Assembly (NCBI GenBank): GCA_020445645.1
Contig: JAGRGG010000049.1
Span: 1 to 32,225 of the forward strand
Direction of reading: 5' to 3'
Source of the DNA: Geminicoccaceae bacterium
GTDB taxonomy: Bacteria > Pseudomonadota > Alphaproteobacteria > Geminicoccales > Geminicoccaceae
Length of the DNA: 32,225 bases
Shown: piece after piece, positions 1 to 31,777 of the stretch
Numbering within the stretch: the first letter of the stretch is position 1
How the letters are laid out: each line of letters starts with the position of its first letter
Program-made: the position numbers and the translations under genes
Notes under the pieces: generated by a model
What the model saw: only the letters and a program-made list of their open reading frames with translations
Told to the model about the DNA's origin: nothing
Database searches by the model: none

Positions 1-2036
<2,036 letters not shown>

Positions 2037-2330: not shown

Positions 2331-3218
2331 TCAATAGAAGCAGCAGAGCAGCTTCATCTCGACCGTCCCCGCGGCCCCCTTGGCGTCGCCGTTGCCGAAG
2401 CCGGCCTGGAAGCGCACGGCGAGGCGGTCGATCGGCATGTCGTGGGCGACGAGGTAGTCGACGACGCTGCCGAGGCGGACGAGCGCCGTCTCCCAGGCGG
2501 TGACGGCGACTCCCCCGTTCGCCGCCGCCTCGCCCGCCTGCCCTTCGATGACGATGACCCAGTCCCGCCCGGCCGGGATGGTGCCGATCACCTTGGCGAG
2601 TTCGACGACGGAGCGGTTGAGCTGGCCGCGCAGGCGGTCGTCGAGGTCGGTGCGCTCCGGGGGGAAGGCGATCTCGGCGTGGAAGACGTAGCCGCCTTCC
2701 CGCCCCTGCTTGCCGAAGCCGCCGAGCGCGTTCTCGAGGTTGATGAAATTGGCGCTGCGGTAGCGGGCGCGCACGTCGGCCTGATCGCGCACCGCGGCGT
2801 CGAGCCGCTCGTGCGCCTCGGCGAGCAGCTGGCCGCGCTCCTCGACCTGCCGCCGCGCCGCCCATAGCGAGGCGAGGCTCAGGATAACCGTGACTGCCAG
2901 CACCGCGCTGAGGACCGGCCAGAGCAGGCGCGGGCTCACCAGCCCGCCGAGGAGCAACCGGACGATCCTGCCCCCGCCGGCGCCGGAAGGCGCTTGCAGC
3001 GCCTCGGCGTCGTAGCGCAGCCGCTTCCTCGGGTCCCGCAGCACCTCGTAGGCCTCGCGGAGCCTGTTGAAGCGGTCGGCGTCGTCGGGCCGGCTGCTCC
3101 TGTCGGGGTGGAGGACCATCGCTTGGCGGCGGAAGGCTTGGCGCACGTCGTCGGGCGTGGCGTTGCGCCGGACGCCGAGGGTCGCGTAGTAGCCGTGCGG
3201 GTCGTCTGCCGCCGTCAT
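2331..3218 (-). CDS. J-domain membrane protein with OmpA/MotB-like C-terminal region
   Basis: This is a 295-residue protein starting at ATG 3218. Residues 8-71 form a J-domain (YYATLGVRRNATPDDVRQAF, then the diagnostic HPD at 37-39 and FNRLREAYEVLRDPRKRLRYD), the module that stimulates Hsp70/DnaK ATPase. One hydrophobic helix follows at about 98-119, then a charged, probably coiled-coil stretch (120-165). The C-terminal region (FHAEIAFPPERTDL, VIVIEGQAGEAAANGG, VDYLVAHDMPIDRLAVRF) resembles the OmpA/MotB peptidoglycan-binding fold in layout, but the usual GHTD motif is replaced by EGQA. The J-domain is probably cytoplasmic and the tail periplasmic. There is no G/F-rich or zinc-finger region, so it is not DnaJ itself. 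The extended frame to 3497 is unsupported. The J-domain and helix are firm; the OmpA-like call is tentative. Confidence 0.75.
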   Translation of the reverse strand: MTAADDPHGYYATLGVRRNATPDDVRQAFRRQAMVLHPDRSSRPDDADRFNRLREAYEVLRDPRKRLRYDAEALQAPSGAGGGRIVRLLLGGLVSPRLLWPVLSAVLAVTVILSLASLWAARRQVEERGQLLAEAHERLDAAVRDQADVRARYRSANFINLENALGGFGKQGREGGYVFHAEIAFPPERTDLDDRLRGQLNRSVVELAKVIGTIPAGRDWVIVIEGQAGEAAANGGVAVTAWETALVRLGSVVDYLVAHDMPIDRLAVRFQAGFGNGDAKGAAGTVEMKLLCCFY

Positions 3219-3358
3219 GTCCCGTCCAAGGAAGCCATCGCCCCGATGCCAAGGACGGACTATACCCAAGGGGAGTGGCCCCAGGAAGCCCAGGCGGGGG
3301 CCGTCCGGGTGGTTCGCCGCATCGGGGTGCCGCCGTCGCGCAGAGAGGGAGGAGACCC

Positions 3359-4138
3359 ATGACCCATTTCGCCTTCGAGGGGTGCGCCATCGCCTGCACC
3401 GAGGACGGCGCGCCCGACGCGCCGCCCGTCCTCTTCTCGAACTCGCTGACGAGCGACCTGTCGATGTGGGAGCCGCAGGTGGCGATGCTCCAGTCACGCT
3501 TTCGCATCCTGCGCTACGACAATTCCGGTCACGGCGCTTCCGAGAGCATCGGGCGCGACCTGTCGATCGAGGATCTCGCAGGCGTGGCGCTCGGCGTGCT
3601 CGACCATTACGGCGTCGAGCGCGCCGACTTCCTGGGATTGTCGATGGGCGGGATGGTCGGGATGCACTTGGCCGCGCACGAGCCCTCCAGGATCAACCGC
3701 CTCGTCGTCGCCAACACGGGCGCCTATTTCCCGAGCAAGGACCCTTGGAACGACCGCATCCGCACGGTCGTCGAGCACGGGATCGCGCCCATCATCGACA
3801 GCATCCTGGAGCGCTGGTTCACCCCCGCCTTCGCCGAGGCCGAACCCTACGCCGTCGAGGGCGCCCGCAAGATGATGTTCCGCGTCGACCCCGAGGGCTA
3901 CGTCGGCTGCGTTGCCGCCGTGCGCGACGTGGACCTGCGCGCCGACCTCGCCCGAATCGAGCGCCCCACCCTCGTCATCGTCGGCAAGGCCGACCCCGTC
4001 ACCCCGCCGGCGATGGGCGAAGCCATCGCCGGGGCGGTGCCGGGTGCCAAGCTCGTCGCCCTCGACGCCTCGCACCTCTCGAACATGGAGCGCGGCCGCG
4101 AGTTCAGCGAAGCGGTACTGGATTTCCTCGCCGCCTGA
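3359..4138 (+). CDS. pcaD: alpha/beta hydrolase, 3-oxoadipate enol-lactonase-like
   Basis: A 259-residue alpha/beta hydrolase. The nucleophile elbow GLSMGGMVG supplies the catalytic Ser, the acid lies in VGKADPVTPP, and the His in DASHLSNMERG. The N-terminal run FSNSLTSDLSMWEPQ and RILRYDNSGHGAS is very like PcaD, which hydrolyses 3-oxoadipate enol-lactone to 3-oxoadipate in the beta-ketoadipate pathway. No other pca gene is visible here, so it may act on a different lactone or ester. I chose the ATG at 3359 because GAGGGAGGAG lies 4 nt upstream; the longer frame from 3275 is not conserved. It is followed 16 nt later by dodecin on the same strand, suggesting co-transcription. The family is certain, the substrate only likely. 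Confidence 0.8.
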   Translation: MTHFAFEGCAIACTEDGAPDAPPVLFSNSLTSDLSMWEPQVAMLQSRFRILRYDNSGHGASESIGRDLSIEDLAGVALGVLDHYGVERADFLGLSMGGMVGMHLAAHEPSRINRLVVANTGAYFPSKDPWNDRIRTVVEHGIAPIIDSILERWFTPAFAEAEPYAVEGARKMMFRVDPEGYVGCVAAVRDVDLRADLARIERPTLVIVGKADPVTPPAMGEAIAGAVPGAKLVALDASHLSNMERGREFSEAVLDFLAA

Positions 4139-4365: not shown

Positions 4366-6506
<2,141 letters not shown>

Positions 6507-6519
<13 letters not shown>

Positions 6520-8045
6520 CGGTAGACCCAGCTCTCGCCGAACAGCTTGCCGTCCCGCTTGAGGTCGACCCGGCACTCGATCAGGGGCTCGCCGGCTGGG
6601 TCGAGTTCGAGGCTCACCCGGAGCCCGCCAGTTTCGTGGTTGGTGCGCAGGACGACGTTGTTGAAGGCGCCCTTGCTCGCCGAGGCCGCGACCTCGACTT
6701 CCTCCGCCTTGAGCGCGGGGCCGTCGCCGAGGTAGGCGTAGTCGAGGACGAAGCGCCGCCAGTTCGCCTGCGAGCCCTGCCCCGTCAGCGTGCGGGTGAC
6801 GACGGGGCCGTCGGGGCGCTTCGGCACGTCCCAGCCCCAGTAGAGACGGTAGGTGAAGGTGATCTCGGCCCCGGCGGCGAGGCCCTGGTCGGGGCGCCAG
6901 AAGGCGACGATATTGTCGTGGACCTCGGCGTCGGTGGGGATCTCGACGAGGACGACGGCGCCCTTCTGCCAGTCGCCGATCGGCTCGACCCAGAGGCTCG
7001 GACGCCTGTGGTAGAGGGCCTCCAGATCCTCGAACTCGTTGAAGCGGCGCTCGCGCTGCATGAGGCCGAAGCCCTTGAGCCCGAGGTCGACGAAGGCGCT
7101 CACCTGGAGCGCGGACGGGTTGCGCAAGGGGCGCCAAAGCCACTCGTCGCGCCCGTTCCAGATCAGCAGGCCGTCGCTGTCGTGGACGCTCGGGCGGAAG
7201 TCGTTGAAGCCCGTGGCCGTCTTCTCGTCGAACAGGAACATCGAGGTGAGGGGGGCGAGCCCGACCCCCTTGATGTCGCGCCGCGCGAAGAGCTGCGCCT
7301 CCACGTCCATGACGGTCATGTCGCCGGGGGCGATCGTGAAGCGATAGGCGCCCGTCGTCGAGGCCGAGTCCAGGAGCGCGTGGACGATGAGGCGGTCGGT
7401 GTCCGGCCGCTCGACCCAAAAGGCGCGGAAGAAGGGGAACTCCTCGCCCTCGGCCTCGGCCGTGTTGATGGCGAGCCCGCGCGCCGAGAGGCCGTAGACC
7501 TGCCCCCTCGCCACCGCCCTGAAGTAGCTGGCGCCGGCGAAGACGGCGAACTCGTCCCAGTAGTCGGTGCCGTTCAGGTGGGTACGGGCGCGAAAGCCGG
7601 CGAAGTCCAGCGCCGCGTCCGGCGCCGGCATCGGCACCCCCTCGGCGAAGGTGAACAGGTCCGGCCTGTAGACGAGCTTCTCGGCCATGCCGTCGGCGAC
7701 GGTGAAGACCTCGACCGAGACGTTGTAGATGAAGCCCGAATGGAGGAGGTCGACGGTGAAGGGGGAATCCGCCCCGGCCCAGAGCCGGTTCTCCGCCTTG
7801 TAGCGGATGCCCTGGTACTGCGAGTAGCCGATCTGCGCCAGCTCCTTCGGCACGGGCGGCTCCGGCCACTTGAAGGGCTCGGCGGCGAGCTGCCGGGCGA
7901 GGGCTATTACGGAAGAGCGGCTGAAGGGAGTCTTGTCCTCCGCCCATGCCGCCCCGCCGGGCAGGAATGCCCCGCCGGCCAGCGTCGCCCCGGCCAGCGC
8001 CGCCATGCCCGCCGTGAAGCCGCGCCTCGGCATCGTCACCATCAT
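6507..8045 (-). CDS. opgG: periplasmic glucan biosynthesis protein OpgG/OpgD family
   Basis: A 512-residue exported protein needed to build or branch osmoregulated periplasmic glucans in the periplasm. Family landmarks include QLAAEPFKWPEPPVP, YSQYQGIRYKAENRLW, LTSMFLFDEK, RPSVHDSDGLLIWNGRDEW, FGLMQRERRFNEFEDLEA, RRPSLWVEPIGDWQKG and VLVEIPTDAEVHDNIVAFW. The signal peptide PRRGFTAGMAALAGATLAGG contains two adjacent Arg followed by G-F, suggesting Tat export as in OpgD rather than the Sec signal of E. coli OpgG; it could therefore be called OpgD. I prefer ATG 8045 because AAGGGTGGA lies 9 nt upstream, though 8042 or 8033 are possible. It is the first gene of the opgGH operon. Confidence 0.92.
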
Positions 8046-8370
8046 GCTCGCGTTCCACCCTTGCGGCCGGACAACGTCCTCGTCACGTCACGACCTTTCT
8101 CGAAGGTGGTACACGGAATGAAAGGCCAACGCGATGCTGCAATGCATCGCGAACGCCGCACGTCGGTGCGTCGAGCGGGCCTGTCAGGGCAACCCTCATG
8201 CGGCAACGGCGGTCCCACACCCTGGCCAGCCCCTCGCGGTCCGGCGCTTTTCTCGGTATAACTAATATCCTTACAGTCAAGAGACCATAAGGTTCCAACG
8301 GGTGCCGGCGTGGGTCGAAACGATGCTGGCGGTGGCGTCCCGGGTGGGTAATACGTACCCTGATGCAGAT
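8046..8370. other. divergent intergenic region between opgG and the amidase
   Basis: About 325 nt without a recognisable gene. It contains three clear inverted repeats: ACCTT/AAGGT at 8093-8107, GCGATGC/GCATCGC at 8131-8150 with a 6-nt loop, and CGCAC/GTGCG at 8157-8170. An AT-richer patch around 8250-8300 would suit a promoter. On the minus strand TTGACT (8280-8275) is followed by TATACC (8260-8255), but the 14-nt spacing is too short for a standard sigma-70 promoter. Both flanking genes read outward, so promoters for each must lie here. Confidence 0.5.
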
Positions 8371-12947: not shown

Positions 12948-14009
12948 TCACAGACCTATCGCCCGCCCCGTCTCCGGGTCGAACAGGCACAGCGCCCGCG
13001 CCGGCACAGTCCCGTACAGCCGGTCGCCCTGCTTCGCGCGCAGGATGCCGGGTGCGCGGACGACGAGGGGGGCGTCGGTGCCTTCCAGGGTGCCGTGGAT
13101 CACGGTGTCGGCGCCCAGCGCCTCGACGAGGCGGACCAGGAGGGGGAGTCCCTCGCCCGCGAGGGTGAGGTGCTCCGGGCGGACGCCGAGGAGGATTGGG
13201 CGGCCGGGCTCGGCGGTCGTGCCGGGCGGCAGGGGGATGCGTCGGCCGGCCACCTCGACGGCGTCGCCCTCGCCCCGGGCGGGCAGGGTGTTCATCGGCG
13301 GCGAGCCGATGAAGCCGGCGACGAACAGGCTTTCCGGACGCTCGTAGACGTCGAGCGGGGCGCCGATCTGCTCGACCCGGCCGGCATTGAGGACCAGGAG
13401 GCGGTCGCCCAGCGTCATCGCCTCGACCTGGTCGTGGGTGACGTAGACCCCGGTGGCGTTCAGGCGGGTCTGGAGGTCGCGGACCTCCTGGCGCATCTGG
13501 ACGCGCAGCTTGGCATCCAGGTTGGAGAGCGGCTCGTCGAAGAGGAAGGCCGCGGGCTCGCGGACGATGGCGCGGCCCATCGCCACCCGCTGGCGCTGCC
13601 CGCCCGAGAGCTGGCGGGGCTTGCGGGCGAGAAGGTCGGCAAGGCCAAGCGTCGCCGCGGCGCCCCGGACGCGGCGGTCGATCTCGGGCCGCTCCATGCC
13701 CCGGTTCCTCAGCCCGTAGGCCATGTTGTCGAAGACGCTCATGTGCGGGTAGAGGGCGTAGGTCTGGAAGACCATGGCGATGTCGCGCTCCATCGGCTCC
13801 AGGTCGTTGACGACCCGGCCGCCGATGCGGATCTCGCCGCCGCTCACCCGTTCGAGGCCGGCGACGCAGCGGAGCAGCGTCGACTTGCCGCAGCCGGACG
13901 GCCCCAGGATCACGAGCATCTCGCCGTCCCCGACGGCGACCGAAACGTCGTGCAGCACGTGGGTGGTCCCGAAGGACTTGCTCACCCGCTCGATCGTCAC
14001 TTCAGCCAT
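12948..14009 (-). CDS. ugpC: sn-glycerol-3-phosphate ABC transporter ATPase UgpC
   Basis: A 353-residue CUT1-type ABC ATPase that energises the UgpAE permease. Visible are Walker [10 protein letters not shown], the Q-loop [14 protein letters not shown], signature [15 protein letters not shown], Walker [15 protein letters not shown] and the H-loop [13 protein letters not shown]-terminal TOBE/OB domain follows (about 235-353, including GVRPEHL and FDPETGRAI), which in this family can mediate regulation. It is the last gene of the ugpB-A-E-C operon, 21 nt after ugpE. The ribosome-binding site upstream of ATG 14009 is weak. ATPases of this type are interchangeable among CUT1 importers, so it might also serve others. 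Confidence 0.9.
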
Positions 14010-14030
14010 TCATGGGCGCCATGCGGGGGC

Positions 14031-14879
14031 TCACTTCTCGGTCTCGATCAGGCCCCGGACGAAGAGCCGCTGCATGGCGACGACGACGACGACGGGGGGG
14101 AGGAGGGCCAGGATGGCGACGGCGGTGATGTGGTGCCATTCGGGCTCGTTCTCGGCGGCGACGGACATGCGCTGGATCGCCATGACGATCGTGTTCATGG
14201 AGGGGTCAGTCGTGATGAGGAGCGGCCAGAGGTACTGGTTCCAGCCGTAGATGAAGAGGATGACGAACAAGGCCGCGATGTTGGTGCGGGAGAGCGGCAG
14301 GACGATGTCCTTGAAGAAGCGGACGGGGCCGGCGCCGTCGACGCGGGCGGCCTCGGCCAGCTCGTCCGGGATCGTCAGGAAGAACTGGCGGAAGAGGAAG
14401 GTCGCGGTCGCGGACGCGATGAGCGGCAGGATGAGCCCGGTGTAGGAGTTGAGGATGCCGAGCTGGGCCGCGACCCGGTAGGTCGGCAGGATCCGCACCT
14501 CCACCGGCAGCATGAGCGTCATGAAGATGATCCAAAAGGCCGTCATCCTCAAGGGAAAGCGGAAGTAGACGATGGCGTAGGCGGAGAGGATCGAGATCGC
14601 GATCTTGCCGACCGCGATGCCGAGCGCCATGACGAGCGAGTTCAGCATCATCGGCCCGACGGGGCCGCTGCTGGCGCGCTCCAGGCCCCGGCCGAGGACG
14701 GCGCCGTAATTGTCGAGGACGTGCGCGCCCGGCAGCATCGGCACAGGCGCGCGCAGCACGTCGGCGGGCGCCTGGGTCGAGGCCATGAAGACGACGTAGA
14801 TCGGCAGCATGACGAGGACGACGCCCAGGATCAGGACGAGGTGCGCCATGAGCGTGTAGAGGGGCCTGTTCTCAACCAT
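14031..14879 (-). CDS. ugpE: sn-glycerol-3-phosphate ABC transporter permease UgpE
   Basis: A 282-residue inner-membrane permease with six predicted helices, beginning with [22 protein letters not shown]. The cytoplasmic EAA loop [20 protein letters not shown] docks onto the ATPase. [15 protein letters not shown] and [13 protein letters not shown] are hallmarks of UgpE-type MalG-like permeases. The start ATG at 14879 lies inside the last codons of ugpA (8-nt overlap), so the two permease subunits are translationally coupled and form a heterodimer. The substrate assignment follows from the strong UgpB match upstream. Confidence 0.92.
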
Positions 14880-15756
14880 ACTGCACCCGGCGCTCGACGA
14901 GGCGGAACTGGACGGCGGTGAGGAGGACGACGATCCCCATGAGGACCACCGACTGCGCCGCCGACGAGCCCAGGTTGAGGCCGACGAAGCCGTCGGCGTA
15001 GACCTTGTAGACGAGGATGTTGGTCGCCTGCGCCGGCCCGCCCCGGGTCACGGCGTCGATGATGCCGAAGGTCTCGAAGAAGGCGTAGACGACGTTGACG
15101 ACGAGGAGGAAGAACGTCGTCGGCGAGAGGAGGGGGAAGACGATGGTCCAAAAGCGCTTGCCCGGCCCCGCTCCGTCGATCGCCGCCGCCTCGACGAGCG
15201 AGCGCGGGATCGCCTGCATCCCGGCGAGGAAGAAGAGGAAATTGTAGGAGACCTGCTTCCAGGCGGCGGCGATGACGACGAGGAGCATCGCCTGATTGCC
15301 CCAGATCTGGTGGTTCCAGGCGATCCCGACCTTGCCCAGGAGCCACGCGACGACGCCGACGGCGGGGCTGAACATGAAGAGCCACAAGACCCCGGCGATC
15401 GCGGGCGCCACGGCGTAGGGCCAGATGAGGAAGGTCTGGTAGACGAAGCGCCCGCGCAGGACGTGATCGGCCATCGCCGCCAGCAGCAGGGCGACCCCCA
15501 GCCCCAGGGCCGCGACGCCGAGGCTGAACACCACCGTCACCTTCAGGCTGTGCAGGTATTCGGGGCTGTGGAACAGGGCCTGGAAGTTCTCGAACCAGAC
15601 GAACTGGGTCGAGAGGCCGAACGGGTCTTCCACGAGCATCGACTGCCAGAGCGCCTGCCCCGCCGGCCACAGGAAGAAGACGAAGGTGACGGCGAGCTGC
15701 GGGACGAGGAGGAGGGCCGGCAGGAGCCAGCCCTTGAAGGTGACGTTCTTGTGCAT
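14872..15756 (-). CDS. ugpA: sn-glycerol-3-phosphate ABC transporter permease UgpA
   Basis: A 294-residue MalF-like inner-membrane permease. The N-terminal helix ([20 protein letters not shown]) is followed by the periplasmic loop [20 protein letters not shown], further helices, the EAA loop [20 protein letters not shown], and [19 protein letters not shown]. All are characteristic of UgpA. It pairs with UgpE in the membrane and receives substrate from UgpB. The start at 15756 lies 55 nt after the ugpB stop; a strong hairpin fills that gap, probably setting the binding-protein to permease ratio. The Shine-Dalgarno sequence is poor. Confidence 0.92.
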
Positions 15757-15772
15757 GGCGGTGCCGCGCCGG

Positions 15773-15812
15773 GGCGGGCGCGCGGCGGGCCGCGCCCCCT
15801 GCCCCGCCCGCC
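15773..15812 (-). promoter_or_regulatory. stem-loop between ugpB and ugpA
   Basis: Nested perfect inverted repeats: outer GGCGGGCG (15773-15780) with CGCCCGCC (15805-15812), inner CGCGGC (15781-15786) with GCCGCG (15789-15794). It starts at the last base of the ugpB stop codon and has no T-run, so it is more likely an mRNA 3'-protecting or attenuating hairpin than a full terminator. Such hairpins after binding-protein genes allow higher binding-protein expression (as at malE-malF). Confidence 0.65.
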
Positions 15813-17119
15813 TACTGGTTCTGCCGCTCGAACTGGCGAAGGAGGTCGTCGCCGCGCGAGACGGCGGCGTCGAGCGCCTCCTGGGCCGTGGCGTCGCCGG
15901 CCCATACGCGCTCGAGCTCCTCCTCGATCACGTCGCGCACCTGGACCATGTTGCCGAAGCGGATGCCCTTCGAGTTCGCCGTGGGCTCCTTGTTGAGCAT
16001 CTCCTTCAGCGCGACCTCGGCCTCGGGGTTCTTGTCGTAGAACCCCTGCTTCTTCGACAGCTCGTAGGCGGCCTTGGTGATCGGCAGGTAGCCCGTTTCC
16101 TGGTGCCACCACGCCTGCACCTCGGGGGAGGACAGGTAGCTGAAGAACTTCGCCGTGCAGGCGTACTGCTCGTCGGTGTGGCCCTTGAGCACCCAAAGCG
16201 ACGCGCCGCCGATGATCGTGTTCTGCGGGGCGCCCTTCACGTCGGGCCAGTAGGGCAGCCGGCCGGTGCCGAACTCGAAGTCCTTCGCGTTCTCGCGGAT
16301 GCCGCCGAGCCCCGCCGAGGACTCGGTGTACATGGCGCAGTCCTGGTTGTAGAATTTCGGCGCCGCCTTGTTGGTCCGTCCGCCGTAGTCGAAGACCTTC
16401 GACTTCTGCCACTCGGCCATCTTCTTGATGTGCTCGAGGGCAACGCCCTTGTTGAAGACGAACTCGGTGTCGAGGCCCCCGAAGCCGTTCTCCAGCGTTC
16501 CCACCGGCTGATCGTGCCAAGCCGACAGGTTCTCGATCTGGATCCAGCTGGGCCAAGCCGTCGTGAAGCCGCAGGCGTAGCCCGCTTCCTGGAGCTTCTT
16601 CGCGTCGGCCTCCAGTTCCGGCCACGTCGCGGGCGGCTTGCTCGGGTCGAGCCCCGCCTTCTCGAACGCGGTCTTGTTGTACCAGAGCACCGGGGTCGAG
16701 CTGTTGAACGGCATCGAGAGCATCTGGCCGTCGGCGGTCGTGTAGTAGCCCTTGACCGGGGCGATGAAGCCCTCGGGGTCGAACGGCTCCTTCGTGTCGG
16801 CCATGAGCTGGTGGACGGGGTAGATCGCGCCCTCGGCCGCCATCATCGTCGCCGTGCCGACCTCGAACACCTGGACGATGTCCGGCTGCTGCCCGGCCCT
16901 GAACGCGGCGATGGCGCCGGTCATCGTCTGGCTGTAGTCGCCCTTGAAGGAGGGCGTGACCTTGCACTGGTCCTGGCTCGCGTTGAAGTCGGTCGCTATC
17001 TTGTCGACGCGCTCGCCGTTGGCGCCGCCCATCGCGTGCCACCACTGGATCTCGGTCGCGGCCGAAGCCTGCCCCGCGACGCCGAAGATCGCCGCCGCCA
17101 GGATCGTCGCCTTGCGCAT
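15812..17119 (-). CDS. ugpB: periplasmic sn-glycerol-3-phosphate/glycerophosphodiester-binding protein UgpB
   Basis: A 435-residue periplasmic binding protein with a Sec signal peptide ([20 protein letters not shown], cleavage after ASA). The mature protein tracks E. coli UgpB closely: [102 protein letters not shown], and the tail [18 protein letters not shown]. It captures sn-glycerol-3-phosphate and glycerophosphodiesters such as glycerophosphocholine as phosphate and carbon sources. An AAGGGGGG Shine-Dalgarno precedes ATG 17119. The upstream region holds a Pho-box-like site, consistent with the known PhoB control of ugp in other bacteria. It heads the ugpBAEC operon. Confidence 0.95.
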
Positions 17120-22557: not shown

Positions 22558-23483
22558 GCGGGGCGCCTGCCGTGGCGGGCCGGCAGGACGAAGGGGCGTT
22601 CGCGCGCCCCGCCAGGGGCCGGGCGGTGTCCGACCACCCTTTGCCCTGGCTGCTCCCGCTCGTCCTGATCCTGCTCGCCTTCACCGTCTACCCGCTCTTC
22701 TACAACATCTATCTAAGCTTCCACGAGTACGCGCCCTTCAAGCGCGCCCTCGTCTGGGTCGGCACCGAGAACTGGACGCGGCTCTTCGCCGACGGGCGCT
22801 TGTGGGACTCGCTCGGCGTCACCCTCGTCTACTTCGTCGTCGCCCTTGCCATCGAGGTGGCGCTCGGCATGGCGATCGCGCTCCTCCTCGACGCCGACGA
22901 GCCCGGCTTCGGCTTCCTGCGCGGCGTGCTCACCCTCACCCTCGTCATCCCGCCCGCGATCACCGGCATGATGTTCCTCCTCATGGAGGACCCGCAGTTC
23001 GGGATCCTGAGCTACGTCCTCAAGCTCTTCGGCCTCCTCGACAGCACGACGCCGATCCTCGCCACGCCGTCGCTCGCCCTTGCCGGCGTCGTCCTCGCCG
23101 ACGTCTGGCAGTGGACGCCGTTCATGGTGCTGATCTTCCTCGCCGGGCTCAGGGCGCTGCCGGTCGAGCCCTACGAGGCGGCGATGATCGACGGCGCGTC
23201 GCCCCTCCAGACCTTCACCCGCCTCACGCTCCCGATGATGGGCAAGGTGATCGCCGTCGCCGTCCTCATCCGCGGCATCGACCTGTTCCGGGTCTTCGAC
23301 TACGTCTACGTGATGACCTCGGGCGGTCCCGGCACGGCGACGTACAGCCTCAGCCTCTACGCGTGGCAGCAGACGTTCAGCTTCGTGAAGTGGGGCTACG
23401 GGGCGACGATCAGCCTGTTCAGCCTCGTCATCGTCCTCGTCGTCGCCAACCTCTTCATCTATCTCGCCAAGGTGAGGTGGTAG
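22554..23483 (+). CDS. polyol/sugar ABC transporter permease 1 (SmoF/MalF type)
   Basis: A 309-residue CUT1 permease. After a polar N-terminal 25 residues come six hydrophobic segments (LPWLLPLVLILLAFTVYPLF, VTLVYFVVALAIEVALGMAI and others). The EAA loop is PYEAAMIDGASPLQTFTRL, with the typical FRVFDYVYVMTSGGPGTAT afterwards. It resembles the sorbitol/mannitol permeases SmoF and MtlF. GGGAGGA precedes the ATG at 22554, which overlaps the HAD gene stop. It partners with the next gene in the membrane and receives substrate from the Tat-exported binding protein. The substrate is not determinable from the permease. Confidence 0.9.
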   Translation: MSGAPAVAGRQDEGAFARPARGRAVSDHPLPWLLPLVLILLAFTVYPLFYNIYLSFHEYAPFKRALVWVGTENWTRLFADGRLWDSLGVTLVYFVVALAIEVALGMAIALLLDADEPGFGFLRGVLTLTLVIPPAITGMMFLLMEDPQFGILSYVLKLFGLLDSTTPILATPSLALAGVVLADVWQWTPFMVLIFLAGLRALPVEPYEAAMIDGASPLQTFTRLTLPMMGKVIAVAVLIRGIDLFRVFDYVYVMTSGGPGTATYSLSLYAWQQTFSFVKWGYGATISLFSLVIVLVVANLFIYLAKVRW

Positions 23484-24356
23484 ATGCATTCGAGCCCCGC
23501 CGCCCGCGCGCTTCGCTGGGTCCTCGCCTGGGCCGTGGTCGCCCTGTTCGCCTTTCCGATCTACTACTGGATCACCGTCGCCTTCAAGGTGCCGCGGGAG
23601 ATCTTCGACAACCCGCCCCGCGTCTTCGACTTTTCGCCGACAGTCGAGAACTTCGAGAAGGTGTTCGGCTTCAGCTTCGGCGGCGGGTTGCAGACCGTGA
23701 CCGGCGGCGGCGGCAACTTCTACATGACGCCCCGGCTCTGGGATTCGATCGTCATCGCGGTGTTCTCGACCCTGCTCGCCGTCGTGGTCTCGACGCTGGC
23801 CTCCTACGCCCTTTCCCGCATGACCTTCAGGGGCCGGCACCACTTCGTCGCCTGGGTGCTCTCGACCCGGATGATGCCGCCGGTCGCCGTCGCCATCCCG
23901 ATGTTCTTCATCTTCAAGGACCTCTCGCTCCTCGACACCTATACGGGGATGATCCTCGTCCACGCGCTGATGAACCTGCCCTTGGCCGTGCTCCTGCTGA
24001 AGAGCTTCTTCGACGACATCCCGGCCGAGATCGACGAGAGCGCCGTCGTCGACGGGGCCAGCCGCTTCCTCATCTTCCGCCGCATCGTCCTGCCGATGGC
24101 CAAGGGCGGCATCGCGGCGACGGCGGTCCTTTGCTTCATCTTCAGCTGGACTGAGTTCCTCTTCGCCCTCACCCTCACCCAGACCAGCATCAAGACGGTG
24201 CCCGTCGTCTCGTCCACCTTCGTCACCTCGACCGGCACCGCCTGGGGCAACATGGCGGCGCTGGGCGCCGCCGCGATGATCCCGGCCTTCGTCTTCATCC
24301 TCCTCGTGCAAAAGCACCTCGTGCGCGGCCTGACGATGGGCTCGCTCAAGCAGTAG
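23484..24356 (+). CDS. polyol/sugar ABC transporter permease 2 (SmoG/MalG type)
   Basis: A 290-residue CUT1 permease of the MalG type. It has an N-terminal helix ALRWVLAWAVVALFAFPIYY, the hallmark STRMMPPVAVAIPMFFIFKD, the coupling loop EIDESAVVDGASRFLIFRRI (E-S in place of the usual E-A) and FIFSWTEFLFALTLT. The ATG directly abuts the stop of permease 1 (TAG-ATG), with GAGGTGG as ribosome-binding site inside the previous gene. A periplasmic loop after helix 1 (about residues 45-85, including FGGGLQTVTGGGGNFY) is longer and more glycine-rich than usual for the family. Confidence 0.9.
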   Translation: MHSSPAARALRWVLAWAVVALFAFPIYYWITVAFKVPREIFDNPPRVFDFSPTVENFEKVFGFSFGGGLQTVTGGGGNFYMTPRLWDSIVIAVFSTLLAVVVSTLASYALSRMTFRGRHHFVAWVLSTRMMPPVAVAIPMFFIFKDLSLLDTYTGMILVHALMNLPLAVLLLKSFFDDIPAEIDESAVVDGASRFLIFRRIVLPMAKGGIAATAVLCFIFSWTEFLFALTLTQTSIKTVPVVSSTFVTSTGTAWGNMAALGAAAMIPAFVFILLVQKHLVRGLTMGSLKQ

Positions 24357-24395
24357 GCGCGCAACCTCGAACCAACGACCAGGGAGACCGAACCC

Positions 24396-25898
24396 GTGAA
24401 CGACAGGACCAGAAAAGAATATTTGGCCGGAATCGTCGGGCGCTATGTCCGGGGCGAAATCGGCCGCCGTTCATTCCTGCGCACTGCGGGCCGGCTCGGC
24501 CTCGGCGCCGGCGCGCTCGGCCTCGCAGGGCGCCCGCTCGGCCGCGCCCTCTTCCCGGCCGCGCGCGCGGCGGAGGAAGCCCTGCAACCCTCGGCCGAGG
24601 TGCTGAAGTGGGTGGCGGACGCCTCGAAGCCGTTCGCCGGCACGACCCTTCGCCTCGCCACCGAATCGACCCCGCCCTCGAACGCGATCAACTCGCAGCT
24701 CAAGCCCTTCTTCGAGAAGGCGTCGGGCATGACGGTCGAGATCGAAGTGCTGCCGCTCGAGCAGGTGCTCCAGAAGCTCACCCTCGACGTGGCGTCGAAC
24801 CTGGGTACCTACGACCTCTACTACATCGACCAGAGCTGGGCCGCGAGCTTCTACCGGGACGTGTTCGACCCCCGCGAGCAGATCCAGGCGAAGCCCGACC
24901 TCGCCATGCCGAACTACGACATCGACGACTTCCTGCCCGCCCTCGTCGACGGCATCTGCAAGTATGAGGACCGCTGGGTCGGCGTGCCCTACGACATCCC
25001 GATCTTCATCATGATGTACCGCAAGGACATCTACGACAAGATGGGCTTCAAGCCGCCGGCGACGCTGGACGAATACTACACCCAAGCGAAGGCGATCACC
25101 GACGAGATGGGGCCGTCGATGTACGGCGCCACCGGGCAGATGAAGTCCGGCCACTACAGCCTGGAGTGCGACTGGACGGCGTGGCTCTGGGGGCACGGCG
25201 GCTCGATCTTCAACGCCGACAGGAAGTTCACCGGCAACGACGAGCAGGGTCTCGCCGCGATGGACTACTGGTCGAAGCTCTGGAAGACGATGCCGCCCGG
25301 CGTCACCGGGTGGACCTGGGACGGCGAGGGGCAGTCGATCGCCCAGGGCGTCGCGGCCACGATGATGAGCTGGGGCGAGTTCTTCCCCTCCTTCGACGAC
25401 CCCGACGCCTCCAAGGTTTCGGGCCTCGTCGAGCCCGTGCGCTGCCCGAAGCCGACGGCCCTGCGCACGGTCGAGCAGACGGGCTTCGGCGAGATCCCCG
25501 GCGTCGGCCACCAGGGCGGCAGCTCGCTCGCCGTGTCGCAGTATTCCAAGAACCCGGACGCCGCCTGGATCTTCATGCAGTGGGCCACCTGCGCCGACAC
25601 GCAGGCGCTCATCACCACGCTCGGCGGCGGCACCGGCCCCACCCGGTCGAGCGTCTACGACGACCCGCGCGTCAAGGCGAACGCCCGCGTCGGCGCCGGC
25701 ACGACCCGCCACCTCGACGTGGTCCGGGCCACGATCGAGCACGACATGGGCTCGGAGCCGGATCTCCCGCAGTGGGCCGAGCTGTCCAACGACACGATCC
25801 CGGTCCAGCTCGGCCGCTACTTCGCCGGCGAGTACGGCTCGGCGAAGGAGGCGCTCGACGATATCGCGGAGAAGGCCGACGCCGTCGTCAACGGCTGA
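24396..25898 (+). CDS. Tat-exported ABC sugar/polyol-binding protein
   Basis: A 500-residue extracellular solute-binding protein of the SBP_bac_1 type. It begins at GTG 24396 with GGGAGA upstream. The N-terminus carries a twin-arginine motif GRRSFLRTAG followed by a Gly/Ala/Leu-rich hydrophobic stretch, so it should be exported folded by Tat. The mature domain shows TLRLATESTPPSNAINSQL, YDLYYIDQSWAASFYRD, GVPYDIPIFIMMYRKDIYDK, WTAWLWGHGGSIFN and GHQGGSSLAVSQYSKNPDAAW. It is related to sorbitol- and mannitol-binding proteins but longer than most (about 430-450). The gene follows permease 2 by 39 nt and is followed by a strong hairpin. The ligand is unknown, presumably a polyol or small sugar. 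Confidence 0.88.
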   Translation: MNDRTRKEYLAGIVGRYVRGEIGRRSFLRTAGRLGLGAGALGLAGRPLGRALFPAARAAEEALQPSAEVLKWVADASKPFAGTTLRLATESTPPSNAINSQLKPFFEKASGMTVEIEVLPLEQVLQKLTLDVASNLGTYDLYYIDQSWAASFYRDVFDPREQIQAKPDLAMPNYDIDDFLPALVDGICKYEDRWVGVPYDIPIFIMMYRKDIYDKMGFKPPATLDEYYTQAKAITDEMGPSMYGATGQMKSGHYSLECDWTAWLWGHGGSIFNADRKFTGNDEQGLAAMDYWSKLWKTMPPGVTGWTWDGEGQSIAQGVAATMMSWGEFFPSFDDPDASKVSGLVEPVRCPKPTALRTVEQTGFGEIPGVGHQGGSSLAVSQYSKNPDAAWIFMQWATCADTQALITTLGGGTGPTRSSVYDDPRVKANARVGAGTTRHLDVVRATIEHDMGSEPDLPQWAELSNDTIPVQLGRYFAGEYGSAKEALDDIAEKADAVVNG

Positions 25899-25910
25899 CG
25901 CTTCATGACG

Positions 25911-25939
25911 GGGGACGGCGCGGGTCGCCGTCCCCTTTT
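25911..25939 (+). terminator. stem-loop with T-tract after the binding-protein gene
   Basis: GGGGACGGCG (25911-25920) and CGCCGTCCCC (25926-25935) are a perfect 10-bp stem with loop CGGGT, followed by four T. It lies 12 nt after the stop at 25898 and 16 nt before the SDR start, inside the operon. It probably terminates most transcripts, lowering SDR and ATPase expression relative to the binding protein, or protects the upstream mRNA. Confidence 0.75.
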
Positions 25940-25955
25940 GCCCGAGGGAGAAGGC

Positions 25956-26681
25956 ATGGCAAGCAAGCCCCTGGTCGCGATCACGGGCGCCAGTTCCGGC
26001 ATCGGCGAGGCGACGGCGCGCGCCTTCTCGGCGGCGGGCCACCCGTTGCTGCTGCTGGCGCGGCGCCTCGATCGACTGGAGGCCCTGGGCCTGCCCGACG
26101 CGCTCTGCCGCAAGGTCGACGTGCGCGACCGGGAAGGGATCAAGGCGGCCGTCGTCGAGGCCGAGGCGGCGTTCGGCCCCGCCGACCTGATGTTCTGCAA
26201 CGCCGGGATCGCAAGGCTCGCCGACATCGGCCGCCAGGACCCGCTCGAGTGGGACGAGATGATCGACGTCAACGCGAAGGGGGTCATGAACGCCGTCCAC
26301 GCCGTGATGGCGGGCATGATGGAGCGGCGGCGCGGCACGCTCGTCATGATGAGTTCGATCGCCGGCCGCAAGGTCTACCCCGACCACACCGTCTACTGCG
26401 GCACCAAGTTCTTCGTCCACGCCGTCTCGGAGAGCCTGCGCGAATACCTCTCCGCCTACGACGTCCGCGTCATCGTCGTCTCGCCCGGCATCATCGAGAC
26501 CGAAGTCCTGGACGCCGTCACCGACGCGACGACGCTCGCCAGCTACAAGGCCAACAAGGCGAGGATCGGCGGCGGCATCCCGGCCTCGCACGTCGCCGAC
26601 CTCATCCTGAACGCCTACGACCTGCCGCAGAACGCCCTCGTCCAGGAGATCTGCCTGACCCCGACCCGGCAGACCTACTGA
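25956..26681 (+). CDS. short-chain dehydrogenase/reductase
   Basis: A 241-residue classical SDR. The cofactor motif is TGASSGIGEA, followed by MFCNAGIA (NAG motif), the catalytic Ser in LVMMSSIAGRK, and Tyr/Lys in VYCGTKFF (YxxxK), then VSPGIIETEVL. The residues after beta-strand 2 (LLLLARRLDRLEAL) include Arg-Arg, which favours NADP(H) over NAD(H). In similar polyol loci (SmoS) the SDR oxidises the imported polyol to a ketose. GAGGGAGAAG precedes ATG 25956, so this start is preferred over 25905, which lies in the hairpin. It is separated from the ATPase gene by 19 nt. The substrate is unknown. Confidence 0.9.
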   Translation: MASKPLVAITGASSGIGEATARAFSAAGHPLLLLARRLDRLEALGLPDALCRKVDVRDREGIKAAVVEAEAAFGPADLMFCNAGIARLADIGRQDPLEWDEMIDVNAKGVMNAVHAVMAGMMERRRGTLVMMSSIAGRKVYPDHTVYCGTKFFVHAVSESLREYLSAYDVRVIVVSPGIIETEVLDAVTDATTLASYKANKARIGGGIPASHVADLILNAYDLPQNALVQEICLTPTRQTY

Positions 26682-26700
26682 AGGGTCATTGGAGCACCGC

Positions 26701-27765
<1,065 letters not shown>

Positions 27766-27810: not shown

Positions 27811-28311
27811 TTACGGAACCCGCTGCGGCGCCCCCGCCCCCGCCCCCGACGGCGGCGGCTTCTCGTCTTCCCGGACGATGAAGACCGCGCAGCGGGCGTG
27901 GCGGGCGACGCGGGCGGTGTTGGGGCCGAGGAGGTAGTCCTTCAGGGACGGGCGGTGCGAGGCCATGACGATGAGGTCGGCGGGGAGTTCCTCGGCGGCC
28001 TGAAGGATCTCGTGGTAGATCGTGCCGTGGGTGGCGATGGTGCCGCCGCGCAGCGTCTCCGGGACGTTGTCGCGGACGAGCTCGTCGAGGCGCCGTTCGG
28101 CCTGCCTGACGAGTTCCTTGACGTCGTAATCCCCCGAACCGCCGGTCTCGCCGCGGATGGCGTAGCGCCAGTCGACGCCCGCCACGATGTGCGGCACGAC
28201 GGTCATGAGGTAGACCTTGCCGTCGCGCGCCTTCGCCTGGACGACCGCCTCGGGCAAGGCCCGGTGCCAGGAGCTCTTGTGCTCCAGGTCGATGGGGCAG
28301 AGGACGTTCAT
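27811..28311 (-). CDS. universal stress protein (UspA family) of the BCCT operon
   Basis: A 166-residue cytoplasmic Usp protein starting MNVLCPIDLEHKSSWHRALP. The C-terminal nucleotide-binding segment is ADLIVMASHRPSLKDYLLGP followed by NTARVARHARCAVFIVRE. The usual G-x2-G-x9-G-S/T ATP motif is altered (SHRP in place of GxxG), and this resembles the TeaD type that accompanies the TRAP ectoine transporter TeaABC and regulates it. GAGGAGAG precedes ATG 28311. The ATG overlaps the TGA of the binding-protein gene by 4 nt (ATGA), so it is translationally coupled to the transporter operon and is probably a regulatory subunit for it. The last 15 residues are Pro/Gly/Ala-rich. Confidence 0.87.
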   Translation of the reverse strand: MNVLCPIDLEHKSSWHRALPEAVVQAKARDGKVYLMTVVPHIVAGVDWRYAIRGETGGSGDYDVKELVRQAERRLDELVRDNVPETLRGGTIATHGTIYHEILQAAEELPADLIVMASHRPSLKDYLLGPNTARVARHARCAVFIVREDEKPPPSGAGAGAPQRVP

Positions 28312-30209
28312 GTACGCTCTCCTCTGATGACGTCGCGCTGCAACCGGACGCGCGGCTCGGCGATGAGCAGGTAGAACAGGAAGACCATCATCACGATCAC
28401 GAACAGGTTGGCGAGCGAGGCCCACGGGCTGGAGACGAGGCTCGTCGCCTCTTCGTGAAGCTTGGTCGTCAGCATCGCCGCCTGCGGCAGGGCGGGGTCG
28501 ACCAGTTCCATCCGCCCGAACGCCTCGCGCAGGCCCGTGATCGTCTCGTCGGGCAGGACCTGGGCCGGCTTGGTGCCGGTGGTCTGCGGCCCGCGCTCGC
28601 CGATCTCGCCCTCACGGCTTACGGGTCCGATCAGGACCATCTGCGAGGAGAGCGTGTCGACGGCGTCGCCCATGCCGGGGTAGGTCTGGGGCGCCAAGCG
28701 CGCCGGGCGCAGGAAGGAGAAGCGCAACGCCGCCGGGCTCTGCGTCCAGGCTTCCACCCCGAGGAGGCGACGGCCGTTGCCCATGATCCCGGCGACGTCG
28801 GACTCGCCCTGCGGCGCCATGACGAGGAGCGCGTCGATGTCGCCCTTCGCCAGCGCCTCGGCGCGGCCGGCGAGGTCCTGCGCCTGCGGCACGACCTCGA
28901 CCGTCCCGTCGAGGCCGAGCCCGGCCAGGAGCAGGCGGGCGGTGCGGTCGGAGGACGACCCCGCCTCGCCGACGCCGAGCCGCTTGATCCCTTCCAGGCC
29001 CCGCGGCCCGTCCTTCTCGGCGATCAGGTGGACCAGCTTGTAGCCGACGACGCCGACCGCCTCGACCCCGCCGCGTGGGGCGGGCTTGCCGTCCCGGGCG
29101 GTGAAGAAGTCGTCCGCCGAAGTGACGCCGAGGCGGGCCTTGCCGTCGCGCACCGCCTCCAGGGGGTCCGGGGTGCGGTCGAGCCGGAGCTGCGCGTCCT
29201 TGAACGCGGTGCGGGCCGCCCGCACGGCGCGGCCGGCGGGGCCGGAGAGCGAGTCGTCCGTTTCGAGCGCCATCGGGACGGTCTCGCCCGGGGCGCCCCC
29301 GGCGGCGCCCTCGCCCGGCGCCTTGAGCAGGCCCTTGTCGGTGAGGAACGCGAGCGCCACCGTTTCTGCGCTCTGCCCGCCCAGCGTGACGGCGGCGTTG
29401 AGCCTGCGCATCTCGCCGGTGGAGAGCTTGCCGGCGAGCCTGCCGATCGCGGCGGAAAGGTTCGGAAAGCGGGCGAGCGCGTCCTGGCGGACGACGGGGG
29501 CGCCCTCGTAGACCGGGAAGAACTTGAGGTCGTCCTTGAGCACCTTGAGCCCGTAGGCGTCGATCTCGGCGTCGGTCGTGTAGAGTTCCGCCGCCTGCGC
29601 CCTGCCGTCGAGGAGGGCCTCCATGATCTTGTCCTTGCCGCCCTCGGCCACGTCGTAGGCGAGCGGGTCGCCGAGGTCGAGCGCGTAGCGGCGGGCCATC
29701 GGCCCCAGCCCGTCGAGCGGCCGCTCGGCGAAGGTGGTGTCGACGGCGAGCGTGAGGCCTTGGATCCGGGAGAGGTCGCTGATCGTTCCGATGCCCTGGG
29801 CATCCGCCGCCTCGGGGCGCATGACGATGGCGTAGTCGTTGGCGAAGCCGAGGCGGTCCAGCCAGTTGAGGCCCAGGGGGCCGTAGAGTTCCCGCACCTT
29901 GGCGAGCGAGGCGTCGCCGTCCTGGGAGGGGGTCTGGCCCGTGTAGGCGAGGCCCGTGCCGTTGTAGTCGAGGTAGAGGTCGATCCGGCCCTCCTTGATC
30001 GCCTCGAACGCCTCGGCCGAGTCGCCGTAGGGGATCCTGCGCTCGACCGGGATGCCGGCGTCCTCGGCGAGGTCGGCCAGCATGTAGCCGACGACCTCGC
30101 TCTCGATGAAGTCCTTCGAGCCCACCTTCAGGGGGTCGACCGACTCGCCGCAGGCGGCGAGCAGGCCGAGCGGGGCAAGCGCGACGATGGCCTTGGCGAA
30201 GCGGTTCAT
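28308..30209 (-). CDS. lipoprotein with osmoprotectant-binding domain fused to a TAXI-like domain and C-terminal membrane helix
   Basis: A 633-residue protein with lipobox LLAAC (Cys20). Residues 25-300 form an OpuAC/ProX-type domain: LKVGSKDFIESEVVGYMLAD, GRIDLYLDYNGTGLAYTGQT and RLGFANDYAIVMRPEAA match binding proteins for quaternary amines such as glycine betaine and choline. Residues 310-590 form a second binding-like domain with TAXI features (AVRDGKARLGVTSADDF, IKRLGVGEAGSSSDRTARLL, LAKGDIDALLVMAPQG, TLSSQMVLIGPVS). A hydrophobic helix at about 599-617 (LANLFVIVMMVFLFYLLIA) precedes a basic tail. It would thus be held in the membrane at both ends. Start ATG 30209 overlaps the BCCT stop by 4 nt. 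No ABC permease or ATPase is nearby. Domain 1 is firm, domain 2 tentative. Confidence 0.8.
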   Translation of the reverse strand: MNRFAKAIVALAPLGLLAACGESVDPLKVGSKDFIESEVVGYMLADLAEDAGIPVERRIPYGDSAEAFEAIKEGRIDLYLDYNGTGLAYTGQTPSQDGDASLAKVRELYGPLGLNWLDRLGFANDYAIVMRPEAADAQGIGTISDLSRIQGLTLAVDTTFAERPLDGLGPMARRYALDLGDPLAYDVAEGGKDKIMEALLDGRAQAAELYTTDAEIDAYGLKVLKDDLKFFPVYEGAPVVRQDALARFPNLSAAIGRLAGKLSTGEMRRLNAAVTLGGQSAETVALAFLTDKGLLKAPGEGAAGGAPGETVPMALETDDSLSGPAGRAVRAARTAFKDAQLRLDRTPDPLEAVRDGKARLGVTSADDFFTARDGKPAPRGGVEAVGVVGYKLVHLIAEKDGPRGLEGIKRLGVGEAGSSSDRTARLLLAGLGLDGTVEVVPQAQDLAGRAEALAKGDIDALLVMAPQGESDVAGIMGNGRRLLGVEAWTQSPAALRFSFLRPARLAPQTYPGMGDAVDTLSSQMVLIGPVSREGEIGERGPQTTGTKPAQVLPDETITGLREAFGRMELVDPALPQAAMLTTKLHEEATSLVSSPWASLANLFVIVMMVFLFYLLIAEPRVRLQRDVIRGERT

Positions 30210-31777
30210 TCGGCCGGCCTCCCTTCCGCGGGAACGACGCGCGTCCCGTCCTCGCCGTAGAGCCTCACCCGCATGTAGCGGGGCATCGGCGGCGTCTCCT
30301 CGCGCAGCGCCCGGAAGAACCCGACCAGCTGGAAGAGGACGATGAAGGTGAAGGGGATGGCGCCCGTGATCGCCATCGCCTTCGCCACGGTGATGCTGCC
30401 GCTGAACAGCGTGCCGACGGTGATCGCGGCGATGATCAGGCCCCAGACGAGCTTGGTGAGCGTCGACGGGTTGAGGCTGCCGTTCGTCGTCATCATGGCG
30501 ACGACGTAGGTGCCGCTGTCGGCGCTGGTGACGAGGAAGATGAAGACGAGCGAGATGGCGAGGACGTTCAGGATCTGCGAGAACGGCAGGTAGTTGAGGA
30601 AGACGAAGAACGCCTTGGTCACGTCGGCGAAGACCACCTCGGAGAGCCCGCCCGCGCCGTGCATCTCGATGTAGAGCCCGGCCCCCCCGAAGACGGCGAA
30701 CCAGAGCATCGAGAACAGGGTGGGGACCAGGATGACGCCGATGCAGAACTCGCGGATGGTGCGGCCCCGGCTGATGCGGGCGATGAAGATGCCGACGAAC
30801 GGCCCCCAGGCAATCCACCAGATGAGGTAGGTGAGCGTCCAGCTGTGCACCCAGCTGCGCAGCTCTTCCTTATAGGTGAACAGCCTGAACGAGTAGTCGA
30901 CGAGCCGGCCGAAGTAGTCGCCCAGCGAATTGACGAAGACGCCGAAGAGGAAGGTCGTGGGGCCGACGAAGAGGACGATCAGCATCAGGGCGATCGCCAG
31001 GATCATGTTGAGGTTGGAGAGGATCTTGATGCCCTTGTCGACGCCCGTGCAGGCCGAGGTGAGGAAGGCGGCCGTCATGGCGACGAGGATGATGACGCTC
31101 ATCGTGTCGGTGCCGGGGGTGCCGAACACCTGGGTCATCCCGGAGCGGGTCATGAGCACGCCCGACGAGAGCGAGCCCGCGAGGCCGAAGATCACGGCGA
31201 GCACGGCGACGATGTCGGCGAACGCGCCGAAGCCGTTGGTGAGCTTCGCGCCCAACAGGGGCTTCAAGGAATAGATGATCGGCGTCGAGACCATCGACGC
31301 CTGGTCCTTGCGGAAGACGAAGTAGGCGATGACGAGCGCGCAGATGCCGTAGATCGACCACGCGTGCAGGCCCCAGTGCAGGTTGACGATGGCGAGCGCC
31401 GTCCGCGCCGCCTCCGGGGTCTGCCCCACCTCGCCCGGCGGCGAGTAGTAGTGGTACATCGGCTCTGCGACGCCCCAGAAGAGGAGGCCCGAGCCCATCC
31501 CGCCCGCGAACAGCATGGCGATCCACGACGCCGTGTCGAACTCCGGCACGTCGTCGTCCTTGCCCAGCTTGATCCCGCCGTAGGGGCCGATGGCGAGGAA
31601 CAGGCTGATGACGAGGAACATCGTGCAGACGAGGAGGTAGAGCCAGTCGAGGCTGTCGAGGGCGGCCCCGGTCAACCCCAGGGCCATGTCGGCCAACTGG
31701 TCGGGGAAGATGACCCCCCAGATCCCGATGGCGGCGCTCAGCGCCATCGACACGACGAGGACGACGTTGCCGCGCAT
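30206..31777 (-). CDS. BCCT-family betaine/choline/carnitine-type transporter
   Basis: A 523-residue secondary transporter with about 12 hydrophobic segments. The family's glycine-rich segment is FAGGMGSGLLFWGVAEPMYH, with Ser at the position that is Ile in BetP (MGIGL). The BCCT signature is WTLTYLIWWIAWGPFVGIFIAR followed by ISRGRTIREF, which contains the Trp residues of the betaine box, and VTSADSGTYVVAMM is also typical. BCCT carriers import quaternary ammonium compounds, often with Na+ or H+, for osmoprotection. The C-terminal tail after the last helix is about 30 residues, shorter than the osmosensing tail of BetP. GGGGAGAA lies 7 nt before ATG 31777. It is the first gene of the BCCT-binding protein-Usp operon; both junctions are ATGA overlaps. 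Confidence 0.93.
   Translation of the reverse strand: MRGNVVLVVSMALSAAIGIWGVIFPDQLADMALGLTGAALDSLDWLYLLVCTMFLVISLFLAIGPYGGIKLGKDDDVPEFDTASWIAMLFAGGMGSGLLFWGVAEPMYHYYSPPGEVGQTPEAARTALAIVNLHWGLHAWSIYGICALVIAYFVFRKDQASMVSTPIIYSLKPLLGAKLTNGFGAFADIVAVLAVIFGLAGSLSSGVLMTRSGMTQVFGTPGTDTMSVIILVAMTAAFLTSACTGVDKGIKILSNLNMILAIALMLIVLFVGPTTFLFGVFVNSLGDYFGRLVDYSFRLFTYKEELRSWVHSWTLTYLIWWIAWGPFVGIFIARISRGRTIREFCIGVILVPTLFSMLWFAVFGGAGLYIEMHGAGGLSEVVFADVTKAFFVFLNYLPFSQILNVLAISLVFIFLVTSADSGTYVVAMMTTNGSLNPSTLTKLVWGLIIAAITVGTLFSGSITVAKAMAITGAIPFTFIVLFQLVGFFRALREETPPMPRYMRVRLYGEDGTRVVPAEGRPAE

Follow-up and report, generated by a model that had tools for sequence, protein, structure and literature searches.

A conserved gene pair encoding a BCCT carrier and a lipoprotein with two substrate-binding domains, a candidate binding-protein-assisted importer for a betaine

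The window analysed here is an entire contig (G000:C2) of 32,225 bases from a draft genome of 3.78 Mb in 291 contigs, and because it is the whole contig the upstream side of the operon is lost after about 450 bases beyond position 31777. Three genes on the minus strand encode a BCCT-family carrier, a large lipoprotein and a universal stress protein (Usp), and their features are given in Table 1. An earlier note on this DNA described these genes as joined by two 4 nt ATGA overlaps, which we confirm at 30209-30206 and 28311-28308; the first of these suggests that the BCCT and lipoprotein genes are translationally coupled. The identities assigned in that note also hold, with Pfam E-values of 7.7e-167 for BCCT, 2.1e-46 for OpuAC (lipoprotein residues 26-290) and 7.8e-20 for Usp, and no ABC gene was found from 27766 to the end of the contig. 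A MalK-type ATPase is encoded on the opposite strand, up to position 27765, by a gene of a sugar-type ABC operon that has its own substrate-binding protein (SBP).

Table 1. Features of the BCCT-lipoprotein-Usp operon
Feature	Positions	Strand	Remarks
BCCT-family carrier	30206..31777	-	523 aa; Trp box and Na2-type residues intact
ATGA overlap, 4 nt	30206..30209	-	BCCT stop / lipoprotein start
Lipoprotein	28308..30209	-	633 aa; lipobox LAAC with Cys20, OpuAC/ProX, TAXI, C-terminal transmembrane helix
OpuAC/ProX (cluster F-III) substrate-binding domain	29316..30140	-	lipoprotein residues 24-298
TAXI-TRAP-type substrate-binding domain	28455..29288	-	lipoprotein residues 308-585
C-terminal transmembrane helix	28362..28427	-	lipoprotein residues 595-616; short basic tail after
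ATGA overlap, 4 nt	28308..28311	-	lipoprotein stop / Usp start
Universal stress protein (Usp)	27811..28311	-	166 aa; RYAIRGE motif; canonical ATP-binding motif absent

Elsewhere on the contig there are two sugar-type ABC importer operons, at 12948-17119 on the minus strand and 22646-27765 on the plus strand, and both encode an SBP and a MalK-type ATPase of their own; the second includes an SDR gene, and a HAD hydrolase gene lies just upstream. The region 4366-8045 on the minus strand holds an MdoG gene (PF04349, 6507-8045) together with a glycosyltransferase frame (within 4366-8058), which is consistent with osmoregulated periplasmic glucan synthesis being encoded on the operon's own contig.

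The lipoprotein is more complex than was first described. Its OpuAC/ProX-type domain was correctly named in the earlier note and is recognised by PF04069 with 159 bits, but the TAXI domain was only alluded to there, and the union of two SBP domains and a transmembrane anchor in one protein was not stated. In an AlphaFold2 model of the full-length protein (mean pLDDT 86.9), residues 24-298 adopt the cluster F-III fold (Z 35 to iAChSnFR/OpuBC-type structures) and residues 308-585 match TAXI-TRAP proteins with Z up to 22.4. When the TAXI part was modelled alone (pLDDT 88.3) it matched six TAXI structures at Z 18.6-22.0, and the next fold scored 12.9. NCBIfam gives a weak TAXI match over residues 351-527, and NMT1_3, a TAXI-type Pfam family, matches 20 of 24 members at E 0.01, the window protein scoring 18 bits, which is under the cut-off of 27. 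The lipobox Cys (Cys20) and the C-terminal hydrophobic helix are each present in all 24 of the relatives aligned, and in most of them the helix is followed by a short basic tail. The lipobox, the two binding domains and the C-terminal helix together suggest a topology of two periplasmic domains between an N-terminal lipid and a C-terminal transmembrane helix.

When 84,980 species genomes were scanned with the full-length lipoprotein alignment, 25 whole-protein relatives (L046-L070, among which L070 ends at a contig edge and L059 has frame breaks) and 55 OpuAC-only matches were obtained. A BCCT gene lies directly upstream of the lipoprotein gene in 25/25 of the former and 0/55 of the latter, where an ABC ATPase is nearby in 53/55; these counts are not independent, because relatives of Planococcus weigh heavily in the OpuAC-only control set and the 25 include closely related members. 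The 25 fall in the Alpha- and Gammaproteobacteria (Roseobacteraceae, Paracoccaceae, Phyllobacteriaceae, Rhodospirillaceae, Rhodovibrionaceae, Kiloniellaceae, Minwuiaceae, Thiotrichaceae and one unclassified gammaproteobacterium), and the pair is carried mostly by bacteria of marine and saline habitats. Few of the sampled genomes carry the system: 2/385 of the class, 3/31 of the family and, in a phylum sample of 398 genomes, only the window's genome and one other. The BCCT-lipoprotein-Usp triplet is thus conserved in other genomes, and an ordinary chance operon is rejected because the arrangement is conserved far beyond chance. No clustered gene family beyond the triplet recurs across genera in the flanks within 6 kb, and annotation of the flanking genes, which was done to infer the substrate, revealed no common pathway.

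Searching 321 gammaproteobacterial genomes with a profile of the TAXI domain only, which took no account of BCCT or OpuAC, added one divergent member, L198, with a lipobox, OpuAC, TAXI, a C-terminal helix and a BCCT gene upstream. The weak TAXI-only matches L191-L197, L040, L043 and L044 were rejected as members; their frames are about 330-500 aa with no OpuAC match and they were taken as ordinary TAXI proteins. Near one weak TAXI-type match, L193, there is a BCCT frame (3-1100, minus strand, E 2e-64) in a gammaproteobacterial genome, with no OpuAC match seen. In G409 (L028/L059) stop codons around 1491-1495 and 1960-1964 split the lipoprotein between OpuAC and TAXI, which may be either a true break or an assembly error.

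The carrier scores 556 bits with PF02028 (cut-off 27) and 449.7 with TIGR00842 (cut-off 407.6). Residues W135, W140, Y143, W320, W321, W324, T417 and S418 are invariant in the paired members and align with BetP, from which we take the roles of the Trp-box and Na2-type positions. Because these residues are invariant and aligned in this way, the protein is likely to be a Na+-coupled betaine carrier. It shares with BetP/BetT-type carriers the BCCT family, the Trp box, the Na2-type Thr-Ser and a betaine-type Gly-rich motif. In contrast with them, however, the paired BCCT cluster has GMG[SA]GL instead of GMGIGL, in most members the first Trp of WAWW is replaced by Leu, and its members are paired with an SBP lipoprotein where BetP/BetT-type carriers have no known SBP partner.

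Identity to the window BCCT is 57-70% for the paired BCCTs and does not exceed 42% for the closest solo BCCTs among 385 genomes of the class. In the tree the paired BCCTs form a 25-row subgroup (94/97), and the 27-row clade around it (100/99) takes in two distant solo BCCTs as well. Distances between BCCTs correlate with those between lipoproteins (r 0.94), but shared ancestry alone could give such a correlation. Only one solo BCCT, L137 (G408), lies inside the subgroup, and we rejected it as a counter-example; it is near the end of its contig and an IS110-like transposase frame (2921-4036, identified by eye and not by a profile) is directly downstream. No BCCT of the cluster was seen in intact surroundings without the lipoprotein. 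These observations bear on the view that carrier and lipoprotein act independently in osmotic stress, with a common operon but no physical coupling. The osmoregulated glucan genes on the same contig would fit this view, but it is improbable given one dedicated BCCT cluster with an invariant BCCT-lipoprotein gene order, 4 nt overlaps in several members and a spread over two classes, within which the only exception is the L137 locus.

The lipoprotein's OpuAC domain has the residues expected of a betaine site. The cage tyrosines of OpuBC/OpuCC structures align to lipoprotein Y82, Y126, Y210 and Y234; Y82 and Y234 are conserved in 24/24 sequences, Y126 in 22/24 (the remainder being F), and position 210 is Y or F in 23/24. 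On the carboxylate side, K32, T85 and R163, which we take to be at the positions of AfProX Lys13, Thr66 and Arg149, are conserved in 24/24, 22/24 and 24/24, respectively. An aromatic cage has been described for ProX, OpuBC and EgtU, and in AfProX the lysine orients the carboxylate (PMC9732360). As both the cage and the Lys/Thr/Arg positions are conserved, the predicted ligand is a betaine with a carboxylate, with choline alone and ergothioneine as less likely candidates. In the TAXI domain, by contrast with TtGluBP, the Gln of the ALAQND stretch is not kept and its column is Ser or Gly (numbering equivalence to VcGluP being assumed), which makes it doubtful that this domain binds glutamate in the known way; the Tyr region of the VcGluP glutamate site lies outside the TAXI alignment.

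SBPs of the OpuBC/ProX/EgtU type share the cluster F-III fold and the conserved cage with the N-terminal domain, but here that domain is fused to TAXI and a transmembrane helix and is paired with a BCCT instead of an ABC permease. It could be argued that the lipoprotein serves an ABC permease encoded elsewhere in the genome and lies behind the BCCT gene for co-regulation only, and OpuB/ProW-like permeases are indeed present in genomes that carry the system. We regard this as very improbable. The lipoprotein gene accompanies a BCCT gene in every case and adjoins an OpuB-type ABC cassette in none, and no ABC permease and ATPase are present in the window unit or recur in the 25 relatives. Furthermore, in the window's genome the top-scoring permease of this kind is accompanied by an ATPase of its own and by an adjacent SBP-like protein with a signal peptide, G409 has no close permease (best E 7e-18, in a genome that is only 82% complete), and neither the TAXI domain nor the anchor helix is a feature of ABC SBPs.

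A Usp gene lies downstream of the lipoprotein gene in the window and in 21/25 relatives; of the others, L061, L062 and L070 end at contig edges. It is missing from L068, L034, L035 and L198. The core of the system is therefore the BCCT-lipoprotein pair, and the Usp is usual but dispensable. L034 and L035 are two divergent BCCT-lipoprotein copies in a single genome, G394, neither with an adjacent Usp gene. The Usp had been put forward in the earlier note as a sensor of energy or osmotic state. The energy part of this proposal is not supported, because the ATP motif G-2x-G-9x-G(S/T) is found in 0/22 Usp sequences (L069 being cut by a contig edge ahead of the motif), and the pair also occurs without a Usp. 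The Halomonas elongata TeaABC/TeaD system similarly has an osmolyte secondary transporter, an SBP and a Usp in one cluster, but its carrier is of the TRAP type and TeaD is described as ATP-binding (PMC9006882), in contrast with the motif-less Usp here. A gene association between TRAP transporters and Usp proteins is known (PMC11574862) and TeaD modulates TeaABC according to the literature, so a regulatory role for the Usp is likely, by analogy only.

Taken together, the data suggest that the BCCT and the lipoprotein probably act as a binding-protein-assisted secondary importer for a betaine. This agrees with the quaternary-amine importer of the earlier note, which is partly supported, by the dedicated and conserved lipoprotein, the ligand-site residues and the lack of an ABC permease in the unit, and from which the Usp as an energy sensor is dropped. 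The lipoprotein would be tethered twice at the outer face of the inner membrane, by the N-terminal lipid and by the C-terminal transmembrane helix. The OpuAC/ProX domain would catch a betaine-type ligand, with a quaternary amine and a carboxylate, in its Tyr cage and hand it, presumably within a physical complex, to the periplasmic gate of the co-translated BCCT, which would carry it inward with Na+. The TAXI domain, fused directly to the anchor helix, may be a docking or gating module or may bind a second ligand, and the Usp would be the usual but dispensable cytoplasmic modulator.

To our knowledge, every other characterised BCCT works without an SBP, and for this reason the lipoprotein could regulate the carrier instead of delivering to it. 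It would then be a periplasmic ligand-sensing regulator whose OpuAC and TAXI domains gate the BCCT via the C-terminal helix, with substrate taken directly from the periplasm. The genetic evidence is identical to that for delivery, and anchoring at both ends together with two binding domains would suit a sensor. Moreover, the C-terminal tail of the BCCT is short, at about 30 aa, whereas long tails are the regulatory elements of BetP and BetT, and the apparent loss of the glutamate-site features suggests a non-transport role for the TAXI domain. However, the cage and betaine-carboxylate residues of a high-affinity capture protein are fully conserved, as would be expected for delivery too, and the TAXI-GltS precedent has been read as delivery (PMC12344293). 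We therefore rank delivery by the OpuAC domain as the most likely reading and a purely regulatory subunit, which we think rather unlikely, next.

The nearest published case is this TAXI-GltS system of Bordetella pertussis (BP0403/BP0402; PMC12344293). Both systems have a multi-domain lipoprotein in which TAXI follows an N-terminal domain, encoded just downstream of, and translationally coupled to, a secondary carrier of a usually self-sufficient kind, with no TRAP membrane gene. They differ in the carrier, which is GltS (ESS family, a predicted elevator) in one and a BCCT (LeuT fold) in the other, and in the N-terminal domain, which is PilO-like and non-binding in TAXI-GltS but an OpuAC/ProX SBP here. 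The C-terminal transmembrane anchor and, usually, the Usp are additions of the present system, and BP0403 binds glutamate whereas a betaine is the predicted ligand here. With the TAXI-TRAP SBPs VcGluP and TtGluBP the lipoprotein shares the TAXI fold of its second domain (Z 18.6-22.4) and the link to Usp proteins, but the DctM/QM membrane component is absent from the window unit and the carrier is a BCCT. We found no BCCT-SBP system in the open-licence PMC literature, outside which such papers may exist.

It is accepted that TRAP and TTT carriers work with SBPs. An SBP partner for GltS was proposed in 2025, and its authors suggested that some feature of the elevator mechanism may let SBPs serve secondary carriers and called for further classes (PMC12344293). 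BCCT carriers are LeuT-fold proteins with a bundle-hash rocking mechanism (PMC10862720), so that a BCCT with a dedicated SBP, if true, would allow a direct test of the elevator proposal, and this in cultured marine bacteria. Cultured carriers of the system include Roseovarius atlanticus and Pelagibius litoralis. The data suggest that a carrier class thought to work alone has gained its own capture protein. Whether the LeuT-fold BCCT depends on a doubly anchored lipoprotein that joins an ABC-type and a TAXI-TRAP-type SBP, for capture and docking or for two ligands, we put forward more tentatively, as somewhat short of an even chance. If it does, it would show how ABC-type and TRAP-type binding domains combine in one capture subunit, and with the same reserve such a BCCT might represent a novel class of SBP-dependent secondary carrier that does not belong to the elevator families.

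Two further observations concern BCCT genes in the genomes surveyed. In L053 (2601-5968) two BCCT genes are in tandem, and only the second belongs to the lipoprotein-associated cluster. In L128 and L129 (G410:C418 and G408:C79) a solo-type BCCT gene has an adjacent Usp gene and no lipoprotein gene, which represents a separate BCCT-Usp association.
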